Below, piece after piece: positions 11,951-62,309 of a DNA stretch of 64,000 bases. The first letter of the stretch is position 1. Every line of letters starts with the position of its first letter. Both the position numbers and the translations under genes were made by a program. Source of the stretch: Conchocele bisecta (Eukaryota; Mollusca; Bivalvia; Lucinida; Thyasiridae); the NCBI GenBank assembly GCA_029237695.1, contig CM055278.1:72097188-72161187 (forward strand), written 5' to 3'. Under the pieces are notes generated by a model that saw only the letters and a list, made by a program, of their open reading frames with translations, did not search any database and had not been told where the DNA came from.

Positions 11951-12170
11951 ACACAAACGCCTGCGTTAATCTTGCCAAAATTATTAATGTTTCTGAACAT
12001 GTATTGGCATTGCCAACTCGCATTTATGCGCAACTTGATTGTCTGAGTCTAAGCTTTAGCACAGCTCATGCTCAGTCAATCAAGCTGCTTGCTTTCAAGC
12101 AGAATATTCAAATACTATGTAATAAAAAAACACATATTGGCAAGATTAGCTTAGGCGGCAGCGTACGGCA
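11951..12170. repeat. Family B foldback
   Basis: CGCCTGCGTTAATCTTGCC at the left, TTGGCAAGATTAGCTTAGGCGG at the right and an AGCTCATGCTCAG core. It ends about 65 bp downstream of the exon 8 donor. Confidence 0.8.
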
Positions 12171-12235
12171 CGACACAGGATTTCTTCATAACTTGACAGT
12201 TGCAGAACGCTCTGACCACCCCTCGTAACACTTAC

Positions 12236-12428
12236 TTTATACACATCAAAATTGTTAATCGTTGCATCAAACATCGTGTAGAGATCGTTGAGCAGATCCA
12301 CGACTTCCATGGGCGTGCTCATGGCCGATATCGTGGTGAATCCGACGATATCGGAGAAATATATGGTCACCTCGGAAAACTGCTCCGCCTTCACAGTTTG
12401 TCCCACCTTCAAGTTATCCGCTACGATT
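12236..12428 (-). CDS. Receptor guanylate cyclase, exon 8 (cyclase catalytic domain, first part)
   Basis: One hundred and ninety-three bases: 1 base plus 64 codons (residues 292-356). It opens the class III nucleotide cyclase domain with [20 protein letters not shown], then [20 protein letters not shown] and ends [11 protein letters not shown]. The aspartate in FSDIVGF is the first metal-binding residue. The acceptor is AATTTTCAG and the donor AAA|GTAAGT. This intron position (after VYK, before VETIGDAY) separates the two catalytic motifs. Confidence 0.96.
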
Positions 12429-12539
12429 CTGAAAATTATATCAATATAATAATAAGAGAATAAATTAGACATGTGCGATTGTTCATGACATATGTTTACC
12501 GAAACTGGTATTTTCTGTAAATGACGTTGCAAGATGAAG

Positions 12540-13010
12540 AATTCCACGTTTGCTGCGAAGAGTTTATTTACGGAACATATCGTAAATTTTGCAAATATTT
12601 TTCATGATATATCGCACATGTTCTTTGGTACAAAGCCACATCACATGTCATATCTCATATGTTGTGACCAGTGTATAGGATCTGCACTGTCGCCTTTCTA
12701 TAAACACGTGTTATACTGTACAAAATAATGTACCCCTGTCAGACTACACGACTCAGTTACATGTGGTAGACCAGGAGCTACATTGGTCACACTTGTCAAA
12801 GGTCCCATATATACAGTCACAGACACGTATAGCATGTGCAACCAGTGTAGATCCAGGCCAGCCTGTTCATCCACGCTGTCTGTCCAATGTCCGTACCGTT
12901 CGCCATTCAATCAGCGATATACATATCATGATTCTTCGTATCAGTGCGTAAAAGTGAACTAGACTGGCCATGAATACAACTTCACCAGTCACAGCCACAT
13001 ACGAGATATG
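12540..13010. repeat. Diverged family L and family C fragments
   Basis: 12540-12665 matches part of the foldbacks at 40610 and 46410 (TACGGAACATATCGTAAATT, ATATCGCA, GGTACAAAGCCACAT). 12660-13010 has worn family C blocks (GATCTGCACTG, GTGTAGATCCAG, CCAGTCACAGCCACATA). Confidence 0.5.
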
Positions 13011-26989: not shown

Positions 26990-27280
26990 AAATTTCCTAC
27001 GAATGTGAAACATAGAGAATAGTAGGTTAGTGTCGTGAATGGGAAAACATATCTGGCAAGGCTCAGGTAACGGGATGGGCGAGGCTCTGCCGAGCACATC
27101 CCGTTTCCTTGCCGCGCCAGATATATTTCCCATTCACGTCACTAACCTACTATTCTATTTATCCCGTCAACACCTACAAATGGTTGTAAAATGCAAAAAT
27201 TGTATTGACTGGATATCAAAAATGTTTCACGGCACCTTGTTTCACGGCACATACATGTACACACTGTGTTGACGGGATAA
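26990..27280. repeat. Family I element
   Basis: AGAATAGTAGGTTAGTGTCG pairs with CGTCACTAACCTACTATTCT; inner arms AACGGGATG / CATCCCGTT. The tail GTTTCACGGCACATACATGT ... GACGGGATAAA is shared with 31745-32045. Confidence 0.85.
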
Positions 27281-27294
27281 AATATAAACATACA

Positions 27295-27550
27295 ACAACA
27301 GGGGGGCGTTTCACTAAACTTCGTACGACTAAAATGTTTTGTAAGTGCAAATTTAGGATCGTCTGGAAATTTCATTTGATGGATTTACATTTATTGAGCA
27401 TAGGCTGCATATGCAGCCTATGGTCAATAAATGTAAATCCAATATTAATTGTTTACAAGAAAATATTGCAAATGTGAAATTTACAGACTATCATAATTTT
27501 ACACTTACGAACATTATAGTCGTACGAAGTTTTGTGAAACGGCCCCCAGA
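27295..27550. repeat. Family D element
   Basis: CGTTTCACTAAACTTCGTAC at the left and GTACGAAGTTTTGTGAAACG at the right, with the same central palindrome as the other D copies. Confidence 0.85.
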
Positions 27551-27675
27551 TTCAGCGAACTGTGTGCCATTGTGACGTGTGAAACAGGGATCTGGCGCGC
27601 ATTAAAGACCACATTTACAAGTGTGGATGCAAGTGTGAATGTCGAGATGAAATATACACATATGTATAGTGTATA

Positions 27676-27786
27676 TGTCACAGGGCTAAAAGGGTTCATA
27701 TCTAACCCGAGGCTCGAATCAGGGACCTCTAGCCGGACACGAATACACATCTTCTCCCCATAGTGAGTTACGTACCGTGACATACA
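27676..27786 (-). repeat. TRIM 3' LTR, with internal deletion
   Basis: Aligns to 27904-28051 end to end but lacks about 35 bases covering the tRNA-like A-box half (AACCGACTGAGCTAG region), so only a decayed B-box-like GATTCGAGCCTC remains. Confidence 0.75.
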
Positions 27787-27794
27787 TTCCCGCC
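27787..27794 (-). promoter_or_regulatory. Polypurine tract
   Basis: GGCGGGAA lies immediately 5' of the 3' LTR on the minus strand, where the plus-strand primer of an LTR element belongs. Confidence 0.55.
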
Positions 27795-27882
27795 AAATTG
27801 AAACTCGTCACCGAATTATATATTTAATTCGTATCTGAATTACATATTTTTGGTACAATTTTGGGCAGTATTTATCAGTCAC

Positions 27883-27901
27883 GGTCCCTCGTTGGGCGCC
27901 A
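27883..27901 (-). promoter_or_regulatory. Primer-binding site for tRNA-Lys
   Basis: TGGCGCCCAACGAGGGACC starts 2 bp after the LTR end. Its first 12 bases are complementary to the 3' end (CGTTGGGCGCCA) of tRNA-Lys(CUU). Confidence 0.75.
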
Positions 27902-27903
27902 AA

Positions 27904-28051
27904 TGTCACAGGGCGAGAACAATTTTGCACCGACCCGGGGCTCGAACCGGGCACCTCTGGTTCAGCATTGCATCGCTATAACCGACTGAGCTAGCCGGGC
28001 ACGAATACACACTTCACCCCACAGTGAGTTACGTAATGTGACGTATGTACA
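27904..28051 (-). repeat. TRIM 5' LTR containing tRNA-like sequence
   Basis: On the minus strand, 28000 to 27927 reads GCCCGGCTAGCTCAGTCGGT at its start, identical to the 5' end of animal tRNA-Lys including the A box, and CCCGGTTCGAGCCCCGGG near its end, a B box in a T-arm. The acceptor and anticodon stems no longer pair well, so it is a tRNA relic and possible Pol III promoter, not a working tRNA gene. Confidence 0.75.
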
Positions 28052-42904: not shown

Positions 42905-44823
42905 GCTGGCATGGTGGCTCGTACTGGACATCTGTCCACCTGTCTCCTCAATTGCCGAAACGCCTTGTAGCCACGATGAACTTCTGGACCTGCTGAAATA
43001 CCAAGCTATTTCCACCGAATGTCAAATGTTCATTGCCGCGGAGCAGTGTGTCTACTGTGGGAGGTCATGGAAGGTTGTTAATAGGTGTGTTTCGATGAAG
43101 TGTATATTTGTTGCAATACAAGAGAAGGTGGCTGACTGTTTCTATGGATCCGCATGTGCAGTGTGGGGTGTTAATAATATATCTCCTGTGAAGGTCGAAG
43201 TTGAGAGCGCTACATGAAAGACGAAGGCATGTATGAAGAATTTGTCCTGTCCTGTTTCCGACGTTAAAAAAGGGTGATGCTTTGACGGAATTGGCGTTTA
43301 TGTTTGCTTTGAAAGAAGACAGAGATTGAGAGTCCTTTATGTTCCGATTCAATGCATTCCAGTCACGAATGGTGGATGGTAAGTATGATTGGTTTTACTG
43401 TTGTGTGCGACAAGGTATGTGAGGTATGTCGTCATCATTTCTAAGATTGTAGCGAGGCTGCCTTTGAACTGGGATTAAATTTGCAAGATAAGATGGTGTA
43501 AGATTGTTTAATATCTTATATAAATGGACTAGTCTGTGTTTCCCACTTGAGTTCCTGCTAGAATCTGGCTATGTTACAAAGTTTGGTCGCGCCCGACACT
43601 ATTCTGGCAGCTTCAGTTTGCACAGCCTCCAGGTCATCCTTCATCTGGTACGAGGAATTATCCCAGACAACATCGCCATATTCAAGGAGAGGACGAATAA
43701 ACGAGAATTGCATACGTTCAAGTGAGGACCTTTTAAGACGAAATTTTAGAGATCTCAAAATGCCTATACGTTGCCATGCTTTGTTGATACACTGTGAGAT
43801 ATGAGAGTTCCATTTTCAGCCGTCAGATAATGTAAGTCCAAGATGTTTGTGTTCTTTGACAGGATCGAGTGAGGCATCATTCATGAGTAGAGAAGGATGG
43901 TGTGGTTTGTTGTATTTCCGGGAAAAAGTCATAGTTTCAGTTTGTGATGGATTGAAGTTTACGAGCCACTTCTGTGACCAATTGTGGATAGTGTTAATAT
44001 CGTTGTTTACAATAGTTGAAGAAAGGACAGGGTCATCGACGATAATGTAGAGACTGGTGTCGTCGGCGAAAAGACGATTGTTTGATTTAATTTCCTCAAC
44101 GATATCGTTTATGAAGATAAGAAAGAGAAGAGGACCAATAATAGAACCTTGAGGAACACCGGCATTCAATGAGGACCACTGCGAACTGGAATTGTTATAA
44201 ACTACCATTTGCTGTCGATTATATAAATAGGAAGATAACCATTTATGAAGAGGACCGTGAATACAAAGGAAAGACAGTTTGTATAGAAGACTGCGATACC
44301 AGACTCTGTCGAAAGCTTTAGAGATGTCACAAAAGACTGCTCTGACCTCCTTGCCGTTATCAAGTGCCTTACATATGTCGTTGTATACATAAGTAAGTTG
44401 GTTGATAGTCGAGTCGACTCTAATAAAGCCTGATTGGAAGGAAGTTAGCTTATTGTTGTTAATGAGAAAGTTGTACAGATACTTGTGGATGCAGCGCTCC
44501 ATCAACTTACCAATGCAGCTGAGAAGAAATATTGGTCGGTAGTTTTGTGGTTTTGATGGATCTGAATTTTTAAACATGGGTGTAACGTTGGCTAGCTTCC
44601 AAGAAGAGGGGAAATGAGACCTGCGGATCGATGTTGTAAAGTATGTAGAGAGGGGAATGGATAATACGTTTGCTGCTTCCCGTAGAAGTCTTGGGCTGAT
44701 AAGATCAGGACCACTAGCTTTGGATGGGTCAATTGCCTTTATTGCATTACAAACGTCGCTAGGAGAGATTGTGACTGATTGCAGGTTGAGAGGTTTCCGC
44801 TTGTAAATGTAGTGTGTGTTCAT
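42905..44823 (-). mobile_element. LINE fragment, jockey/CR1 group, reverse transcriptase and C-terminal region
   Basis: The longest open part, 44823-43816, encodes reverse transcriptase: KASGPDLISPRLL, NYRPIFLLSCIGKLMER, AVFCDISKAFDRVWY, NAGVPQGSIIGPLLFLIFIN and the catalytic FADDTSLY. A TGA after LTLSDG interrupts it, and the same frame then continues KWNSHISQCINKAWQRIG to IARF. A frameshift near 43560 and another near 43380 precede the C-terminal CTCGSIETVSHLLLYC motif. The endonuclease half is absent, so the copy is 5'-truncated as LINEs often are. It lies in intron 2 in the gene's own orientation. Confidence 0.9.
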
Positions 44824-58636: not shown

Positions 58637-61600
58637 TTACGTATTAATTTCCATAAAGTCACTCCATTCTGAATGGAAAATATCTAGTTTATTCTTGATA
58701 GTGGCAATAGTCTCTTCTATTATTATTGTTTGCTTCAGATATATTTTAAAACGGCCTATCGATGGTTGCGTTTCATCATATTTGCACTTAAAAATAAAAT
58801 ATTTTGCTAGAAGAATTAAAAAGCTGATAAGCATTGTTTTATTTTTGCAGTCAACCCTCACGTTACAAAATGATATGTTTTCATATGTTAAATTACTATT
58901 GTAGTCTAACCTACTTGTTTGCAATAGCAGGTTGATATCCGACCAAAAAGGTTGTATGACGTTGCATTCCCAAAACATATGCTTATTAGAATCCACATGC
59001 ATATGACAGAATTCACATAAGCTAGATGGTTTTAATTTGCATTTGAATAGAAAGGCATTGTTTGGAATTAGTCTCATCAAATATTTGTACTGAAATGCTC
59101 TAAGTTTTGTACTTATTGTGCTTTTACATGAAAATGAAAAAATGTATTTCCATTCTGTATCTTGTTTATTTAGTTCGTTTTCCCATTTGATTATATGTTT
59201 TTGTTGTGCTAATCTTGATTTTCTAATCTGTATATTATATACTAATTTATTTATATGCTTCGATGACAAACATAAATTTATTGCATATTTGGGTGTTTCA
59301 TTAGTCAATGGCTCGGTTTTCATTCTAGTTTCCATTCGGTTTTAATTTTACTTAATAATTTGTAATATTTCAAAAAATCTCCAGTATTTATGTTATATAT
59401 ATTTTTCATATCGTCGAAGCTATAAAAGTATTTTATTCTAAAATCATATATGTGTTTTAAATACATAATACCTTTATCATACCATTCTTTACAGAATATC
59501 GTTATATTTCTTTCATTGTTTATGTTTGAGTTATGCCACAACATTTCATAGGATATGTTAACACATGAATGATTAAAATTGACTTTGCACCAAGATGTTA
59601 GTATATTGTTTAGGAACGTATATTGTTTTACAAGATGTTTGGTGTCATTTGAATTTAGATTGCTTTTAAATAGTATATAACCACCATATTTATTTAGTTC
59701 CTTATTGTATGCAAGTTTTAACTGACTCTGTTTACCCTTTAAACGTTTTATCCATGAACAATTAAGTGAATTGATAAATGCATGGATATTAATCATTTTC
59801 AATCCACAATTTTCATAGCTTTGAATTATAGTTATTCGTGCTATTTTATCGGGTTTACCGTCCCAGAGAAAGTTATACATCAAATCATTGATGTGTTTGA
59901 TTGTTTCTTCAGCGGGATTCTCAAGCACTGTTAATGGGTATATTAATTTAGGTAACGCGAAGGTCTTTAAAACAGTTATTTTGCCAATTAATGTCAAGTT
60001 ACATTTTTTCCAGTTTATTAAACAGTTTTGAAATGATTTAATTGTTGGTATTAAGTTTAATTCATGTAGCCGTGTTTTGTTGTTTGTGAATATTATTCCA
60101 AGGGTTGATGCATGGTTACACAATGGATTTGGGTTATGTCTAAGCCTCCCGATATTTAGTGCTGTGCATTTTCACTTATTTAGTTTTAGACCAGATATTA
60201 GTGCGAAAGTGTCTAGTGTATGTATTAGTTCCTTAAATGATATTTCCGATCCATCCAGCGTAAAGCTTACATCGTCTGCAAATAATGTTTGTTTTATTTC
60301 ACTTTCACCTAAAAATAAACCTTTAATCTCTACATTTGCGTTTATTTGTCTAGATAAAAGTTCTATGCAAATAATAAAAATATATGCTGATAGCGGACAA
60401 CCTTGTCCGACACCTTTTTTAATACTGAAAAACTTTGATAGATTACCATTATTCGAAACACAACTGTTTGCATCTTTATAGAATAGAGATATCCATTGTA
60501 TTAGTGAAATACCAAAGTTAAGATTGTTGAGACACTTCCTTATAAATCTATGGTCTAAGCTGTTAAACGCTTTCTGGAAATCTGCAAAAAATATTAGACC
60601 TGGTGTATTGTTTTCATTTGCTTCATTTATTAGTTCCATAAGTGTTTTTACATTTTCTGCTATATATCGACCTTATATAAAACCAGTTTGATTCATGTTT
60701 ATTATTGTTTATAATTTTATAGTCTACATTTAATAGCGAAATTGGCTTCCAATTATCGATTGAAAGTGTGTTTTTATCTTGTTTTGGTCCTTGTTTTTGC
60801 AATTCAGTTAGAGATCCATTTTCGTATGAGTAATTAATCGATTTTATGTAGTGCTTTTTTATGTCATTCCAGTATAGCTTTGTAAAATTCGGCAGTAAAC
60901 CATCTGATCCTGGGCTTTTCATCTTTTTCATTTCCTTTATTGCTGTTACATATTCATATTCATTAATGTAACCCTCACACGGCTGTTTTTCGTTTTCGTT
61001 TAGTTTGTGGTCAATGACGTTGAAAACTGTGTCGTTAGTGTGATTTATAGTATTATATTCTTCATAAATATGCATATAATAGTGTTGTACATGGTTTAGA
61101 AAATCAGTTTGGTTATTTTTCAGTGTCCCATTTATAATTAGTTGTTTAATTGTTTTTGCTTCACTTCTTTTCTTTTCCAAGTTTGTAAAATATTTAGTAT
61201 TTTTTTCTGACCCTTCAACCCATTCAACCTTTGATATTAATAGTATGCCTTTAATCTTCTCGTTAATGATTTCACTAAGTTTATTTTTTTCGACATTTAA
61301 TTCGTCTAATATATCTGGATTATTTGGGGCATTTGCTAAGTTTTGTTCTAAATTTTTTATATTAAGTTCTATTTCTTGTTCATTTGCTCTATCTTTCTTC
61401 TTCACCATACTTGTATATTGTATTGATTCATTTCTTACAGTTCCTTTTATTAGTTCCCACATAGTATTTGGGTTACAACCTACATTTTGATTTATTATTT
61501 CCTGAATTTAATGTTTTATTTTTTGTTTGTATTCTTCTTGTAGCAAAATACTGTTATTTAGCTTAAAATATCCTGGTCCTCTTATTAGTTCGCATAAATT

Positions 61601-62309
61601 TAACTTTAGCAATACTGCTGAATGGTCAGACAAAAACCCAGGTAAGATATCACAATGTGTTACTGCATTTAGTAAATTAACTGATATACGAAAGTAGTCC
61701 AGTCTGCAGAATATTGGTGGTCTATGATTAGAATGCCAAGTAAAACGTTTGTGGTCTGGATGTATGAGTCTGTATATGTCATACAATTCATTTTCACTGA
61801 TAATATCATTTATTTTTGTTTAATATCTTTTATTTGTATCTCTTCTGCCATTTATCTTATCTAAATTGAAATCGATGACGTTGTTAAAATCGCCTCCCAA
61901 TATTAGAGATTCGCTATTATTCTCAATCACTAAATGTTCCAATTTAGTAAAAAAATTATATATCTTCAATATTAGGTCCATAAATGTTTATTAATGTTAG
62001 TGTTGTACTGGCTATACATATTTTTAGCAATTGCAGTCGTCCTGGAATTATATCTTTATATTCTATAATATTATATAAAGAGTTTAAATTGAGTAGAATT
62101 CCGATTCCTATACTATTTGAGCTGTTACCAGAAAGAAATATTTCATTATCCCATTCGTTTTTCCATTGGTCTATACATTCATGTGTACAATGAAGCTCTT
62201 GTAGAAAGCAGACAGCAAAACCATTTTTTTTCAACCACGAAAATAGTTTTGTGCGTTTGGTTTTGTTCCCAAGTCCGTTTACATTGAAGCTACAGAATTT
62301 CGAGTCCAT
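58637..62309 (-). mobile_element. LINE, L1/Tx1-like, nearly complete ORF2 with several breaks
   Basis: Pieces in order on the minus strand: endonuclease 62309-61508 (FNVNGL, LQELH, NIYGPN, GGDFN, LSDHSAVLL); linker 61462-60623 ending in NWKPISLLNVDYK; reverse transcriptase 60639-60172 (FFADFQKAFNSLDH, GVGQGCPLSAYIF, catalytic FADDVSF); thumb and C-terminal region 60123-58637 with the CEFCHMHVDSNKHMFWEC cysteine motif. The total of about 1220 codons matches a full-length L1-type ORF2. Frame breaks or stops near 61950, 61820, 61500, 60690, 60140 and 59330 make it inactive. A separate ORF1 is not recognised upstream. Confidence 0.9.

Follow-up and report, generated by a model that had tools for sequence, protein, structure and literature searches.

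A short element on the minus strand of the 64,000-nucleotide stretch of Conchocele bisecta DNA analysed here (called below the window) combines a tRNA-like block inside its LTR with a primer binding site (PBS) complementary to tRNA-Lys. This raises the questions of what kind of element it is, how it could be transcribed and primed, and whether the block and the primer have a common origin. Judged by its sequence and that of its relatives, it is almost certainly an old, damaged Helenus-type TRIM, that is, a non-autonomous LTR retrotransposon with a tRNA-derived, Pol III promoter-like block in its LTR. It is not a new kind of element, Helenus having been described in 2024 (Kojima, PMC10886601); the assignment to Helenus is made by the anatomy described there.

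Anatomy and surroundings of the element

The borders of the element in the window were set by comparison with sister copies. The minus strand carries the whole element (27676..28043, 368 bp), which is a decayed Helenus-type TRIM. Its 5' LTR (27904..28043, 140 bp, CGTCAC..GTGACA) contains the tRNA-like block at 27926..28000, in which the A box (about 27981-27993) and the B box (about 27938-27948) are both present, as annotated. The interior (27783..27903) comprises 121 bp including the PBS and the polypurine tract (PPT), and holds no reading frame of note. The 18 nt of the PBS (27884..27901) are the complement of the 3' end, CCA included, of a host tRNA of the tRNA-Lys(TTT) type, and the PPT, GGCGGGAA, is located at 27787..27794, 4 bp 5' of the 3' LTR. 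This second LTR (27676..27782, 107 bp) has lost 34 bp between the acceptor strand and the B box, a deletion that includes the A box, which is found in the 5' LTR only. The first run of four T past the 5' B box, a possible Pol III stop, lies within the 3' LTR at 27688..27691. Candidate 4-bp target duplications, TATA on the left (27672..27675) and TATG on the right (28044..28047), match at three of four bases. When the window was searched for TGGCGCCCAACGNGGG with at most two mismatches, one match was obtained, compared to 0.01 expected from shuffled sequences.

Two LTRs with ends of the TG..CA type enclose a short non-coding interior, although the window 5' LTR itself starts with CGTCAC where most sisters displayed read TGTCAC..GTGACA, and the PBS just past the 5' LTR and the PPT just before the 3' LTR are placed as in a TRIM and in Helenus. 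Most parts had been recognised in the initial annotation, with some corrections to be made: the two repeats are present but measure 140 and 107 bp by the sister borders instead of 148 and 111 bp, and the purine tract is there but does not directly adjoin the LTR. Similarly, the architecture is that of a TRIM but the copy is not complete, given the 34 bp missing from its 3' LTR and the strong divergence of its LTRs. The PBS 2 bp past the longer repeat was correctly placed, the sisters showing the same succession of LTR, two bases and PBS.

Candidate exons of a gene for a receptor-type guanylate cyclase, oriented like the element, lie on either side of it. An exon for the guanylate cyclase catalytic domain (PF00211) was found at 12149-12547 of the window, further exons of this gene probably lie near 26.4 and 38.3 kb, and a pattern search picked out what we take to be its kinase-like motifs. 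The window also contains a non-LTR reverse transcriptase frame (43816-44823, PF00078), a second LINE with several broken frames (58637-62309) and, beside the TRIM, two inverted-repeat, MITE-like stretches (27016-27156 and 27301-27547).

A family of sister copies in the genome

The genome searched comprises 1.89 Gb in 1196 contigs, with 17 large scaffolds. At least 109 matching stretches were found, the window's own included; this figure counts stretches and not distinct copies, and is a lower bound, 40 having been scored of 3215 candidates. Using a pattern of LTR start and end, which misses damaged LTRs, the window's own included, 93 distinct sister LTRs were collected from 58 loci, 73 of them exactly 140 bp long. 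The layout of the sisters is a TGTCAC..GTGACA LTR, two bases, the PBS, the interior, mostly GGCGGGGAAG-TA, and again an LTR. Further copies, for which the initial annotation had proposed a search, are thus numerous in the animal's own genome and share one layout. The outcome named as contrary to a TRIM, with independent SINE insertions and no second copy in the LTR-PBS order, was not observed: among the 93 LTRs, 32 stand between flank and PBS and 31 between PPT and PBS (tandem arrays), while 27 stand between PPT and flank and three in neither context.

The LTRs form 47 chains, 28 of which were left out of the count because they lacked a border on at least one side. In 13 of the remaining 19, the 4-bp flanks are identical, the length found in animal Helenus and within the 4-6 bp anticipated for target duplications; the other six match at one base (three chains), at two (two chains) or at none (one chain). 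Counted per insertion, exact duplications amount to 12 of 18, since L090 and L091 share one site. These two loci, separated by about 54 kb, are the arms of an inverted duplicate. Their flanks agree at about 93%, and the one insertion that they have in common, with its TGCG duplication, is present as a full element in the one and as a solo LTR in the other. The arrays of four (L101) and six LTRs (L104) are each surrounded by one exact duplication.

Between the two LTRs of the window copy, 24 of 106 aligned sites differ (15 transitions and 9 transversions). This divergence is strong (K2P 0.28), compared to a median K2P of 0.037 for 43 neighbouring LTR pairs of sisters, tandem neighbours included, two of these pairs being identical; the window copy can therefore be considered old. 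The same comparison indicates that the Helenus-type family appears to have moved or recombined more recently than the window copy.

Several other observations were made during these searches. A second Helenus subfamily (L136:1623-1770, L128, L145 and L147) has a similar PBS and PPT with a different tRNA block and anticodon stem. At L076:1565-2749, a Helenus LTR was seen in antisense orientation to a pol frame judged Gypsy-like by inspection of its translation. Three loci considered as hybrids (L083, L084 and L130) were rejected as such and are read as shortened copies or array ends. Scans of viral contigs with five patterns gave four matches for one pattern and none for the other four, and a scan of prokaryote genomes with one pattern gave 42 matches; these are taken for chance, the likeness to the element at the 46 viral and prokaryote loci being restricted to a short stretch at the pattern.

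The tRNA-like block and transcription of the element

The window block scored 13.8 bits against the Rfam tRNA model, below the gathering threshold of 29, and ARAGORN called no tRNA in either window LTR. Folding of the window block alone yielded no signal (z 0.26). In the sisters, 26 matches of at least 29 bits were obtained in 12 loci, the best reaching 45.6 bits, with none in L059 and L066. The tRNA-like LTR sequence with boxes A and B that characterises Helenus is thus well marked in the sisters and sub-threshold in the window. Regarding the pairing within the block, 40 sister blocks were taken by a pattern that itself requires D-arm and T-loop letters, and 30 of them could be parsed. Pairing is retained in the D and T arms of these and at most positions of the anticodon stem. 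It is lost at the first anticodon pair in 29 of 30 copies and at the two outer acceptor pairs in 29 and 28 copies, respectively. No covariation was detected at the broken pairs within the subfamily among the 30 parsed copies. From these features, the block is better seen as the relic of a promoter than as a functional tRNA.

The block probably promotes Pol III transcription. Of 87 distinct LTRs, 50 have a run of at least four T between the B box and their end, and one has such a run further upstream. Across 43 units made up of LTR, interior and LTR, the first T-run of this length past the 5' B box falls within the 5' LTR in 32, within the 3' LTR in four, as it does in the window copy, beyond it in seven and in the interior in none. 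A T-run hence stands ahead of the PBS in 32 of the 43 units, which is evidence against both a straightforward Pol III genome transcript and the simplest SINE-like reading of the element. Such a run behind the block would halt much of the Pol III RNA before the PBS in most sampled units, and genome RNA would have to come either from Pol III reading through the 5' LTR and terminating in the 3' LTR or from Pol II. For comparison, transcription of Cassandra starts in the 5' LTR and stops in the 3' LTR (Kojima 2024, PMC10886601); the available passages of that paper do not discuss a T-run in Helenus LTRs and name a terminator once, for Cassandra.

It is possible, though we do not favour it, that Pol II makes the genome RNA, starting at an outside or cryptic promoter, and that the tRNA block serves another role, for instance in drawing TFIIIC. 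The T-run found before the PBS in most units would be accounted for in this way, whereas two other observations speak against this reading: none of the 87 distinct LTRs contains AATAAA, ATTAAA or TATAAA, and one exact A-box string is common to 61 of the 87.

Two lysine isoacceptors at the PBS

To the host gene L142, of the tRNA-Lys(TTT) type, the window PBS is complementary at 18 of 18 nt, the first departure occurring at base 19, compared to a departure at base 13 for the Lys(CTT) type. These matches bear out the proposal that tRNA-Lys would be the primer. The host genes were among the 41 exact genome matches of a Lys head pattern, which gave none in the control; of the six that were read, L144 is a tRNA-Lys(CTT) gene and L145-L147 are Helenus-like pieces. 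The other two, L142 and L143, are tRNA-Lys(TTT)-type genes with an apparent intron, occurring in clusters on C4, for which ARAGORN reports no isotype.

The sister PBSs are mainly two 18-mers, exact complements of two host tRNA-Lys genes (TTT and CTT). They were surveyed in 73 distinct contexts from L047-L104, the window's own included; these loci had been chosen for their similarity to the window element and not by the PBS alone, which leaves a slight bias to the window PBS. The two bases diagnostic of the isoacceptor, at PBS positions 13 and 17, are AA (TTT type) in 63 contexts, TG (CTT type) in eight, TA, a mixed combination, in one and TT in one, a broken site, and exact 18-mers account for 49 sites of the TTT type and five of the CTT type. 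Counting sites whose first 12 bases are exact, the nine bases that follow read CGTGACTGA in 43 of 52 AA and three of five TG sites. In the whole genome, the CTT-type PBS pattern has 158 exact matches, compared to none for the reversed control.

The distribution of the two types was followed on a tree built with the PBS left out, from about 275 bases of recombining elements in 83 rows, 29 of them of the CTT type and 26 of these 29 from loci that had been selected by this PBS type. The PBS type changes at least 20 times on this tree, compared to 24.2 (sd 2.0) with shuffled labels. Because only 16 of 500 shuffles were as low, descent leaves some trace in the PBS type. Two PBS types that mark two old lineages, instead of rewriting from the primer, would likewise give fewer changes than shuffled labels. 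We nevertheless consider such lineages unlikely, since a single CTT-type clade is rejected (p 0.00065) and the LTR tail variants found with one type are found with the other, just as single arrays such as L104 contain both.

In retroviruses, the PBS is rewritten from the primer. Rewriting of the PBS from the primer during reverse transcription would be the simplest reading of the scatter in the present family as well, and the sister copies seem to record which of the two lysine tRNAs primed them. Changes of the primer tRNA are known in LTR elements, their mechanism being unknown (Kojima 2024, PMC10886601), and the passages on Helenus available from that paper do not address a family that uses two lysine isoacceptors. 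A literature search on primer site, isoacceptor and retrotransposon gave no paper treating this question for TRIMs among the matches listed.

Origin of the tRNA-like block

The initial annotation had called the block tRNA-Lys-like and had suggested that the primer tRNA-Lys itself was copied into the LTR, head and primer thus being of one origin. The first part holds for the head of the block, its first 20 nt being identical to host tRNA-Lys genes and, in L147 of the second subfamily, 25 of the first 25, but not for the whole: when the block was compared with three host Lys genes, 54 of 79 aligned columns agreed with Lys(CTT), and its 3' end is unlike the Lys 3' end that pairs with the PBS. ARAGORN likewise assigned no recognised LTR block to Lys. 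Among the 93 sister LTRs it called Thr(GGT) in 40, Asn in one and Lys in none, with no call in 52, and among 128 LTR-like pieces it called Thr in 50 and Asn in one. In the second subfamily, the L136 block, with its different anticodon stem, was called Thr(TGT), and of the related pieces L145 was called Ile and L147 gave no tRNA. Read-through into the primer would moreover be expected to leave an antisense tRNA downstream of the PBS and not a sense tRNA in the LTR, and several primer tRNAs are reported for bivalve Helenus, with no block-PBS complementarity in the passages concerned (Kojima 2024, PMC10886601). Copying of the primer tRNA into the element thus finds no support in a block that is sense-oriented and devoid of the PBS-pairing Lys 3' end, and we hold it to be highly improbable despite the shared head.

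The least credible explanation, two independent tRNA-derived SINE insertions lying side by side with an accidental PBS match, would account for a block with A and B boxes but can practically be dismissed, given that the LTR-PBS-interior-PPT-LTR order recurs in the sisters, that the LTR ends TGTCAC/GTGACA are inverted, that 4-bp duplications flank whole units, that the two arms of the inverted duplicate differ at one site by holding either the full element or a solo LTR, and that single units with a LINE-type 3' tail and neither PBS nor PPT were not found among the sisters.

Relation to described TRIMs and proposed replication

Kojima 2024 (PMC10886601) was the only paper found on Helenus, TRIM and retrotransposon in the literature searched. 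According to its available passages, Helenus are TRIMs of 311-1263 bp with a tRNA-derived block containing boxes A and B in the LTR; bivalve Helenus, of which 51 families from pteriomorph bivalves are listed, have a PPT and, in some families, a tRNA-Lys PBS, animal Helenus make 4-bp duplications, and tandem arrays are noted for LTR-11_DR. The window family has in common with them the tRNA-derived LTR block, the tRNA-Lys PBS, the PPT, the 4-bp duplications and the tandem arrays. Cassandra resembles it in having a Pol III promoter in the LTR and tandem LTR-interior arrays but, as far as described in the portions available (PMC7215508), carries a 5S and not a tRNA promoter and is an element of plants and ferns. 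Biv-TRIM is also a bivalve TRIM with tandem arrays; it differs, in the corresponding portions of PMC6934838, by TDRs of 202-218 bp, a PPT that is mostly GGGGAGA and the lack of an unambiguous PBS, and no tRNA block is reported there.

At the level of sequence, the LTR-PBS-PPT-LTR order, the 4-bp duplications of the sisters and the exact complementarity of 18 nt between PBS and tRNA-Lys are established. Gypsy has been argued to mobilise animal Helenus (Kojima 2024, PMC10886601), and the RNA of the present element would likewise be packaged and copied by the proteins of another LTR element, probably Gypsy. In such a cycle, tRNA-Lys would prime minus-strand DNA at the PBS, an integrase would create the 4-bp duplication, and each round could rewrite the PBS from whichever lysine isoacceptor had primed. 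No autonomous partner was found in a shallow look that covered about 110 nt past the PBS at 30 of the 158 CTT-type sites and frames of about 1.5 kb at six of those 30 and at L051. As a tentative proposal, the PBS might be a log of the last primer, with switching between tRNA-Lys(UUU) and tRNA-Lys(CUU) so frequent that the PBS type would be almost independent of descent, and the block and T-run might form the R region of a Pol III read-through genome RNA.

The window copy adds one member to an already known type of element. What is new is the presence in its sisters of PBSs of two types, for the TTT and CTT isoacceptors of tRNA-Lys, whose scatter over the family tree is as would be expected with PBS rewriting. 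With the sister copies, two questions can be put to the test: does Pol III transcribe Helenus in spite of the T-run in its LTR, and are natural PBS variants usable as a genome-wide log of isoacceptor primer choice? A family with two PBS types offers a direct case of primer-tRNA change in LTR elements.
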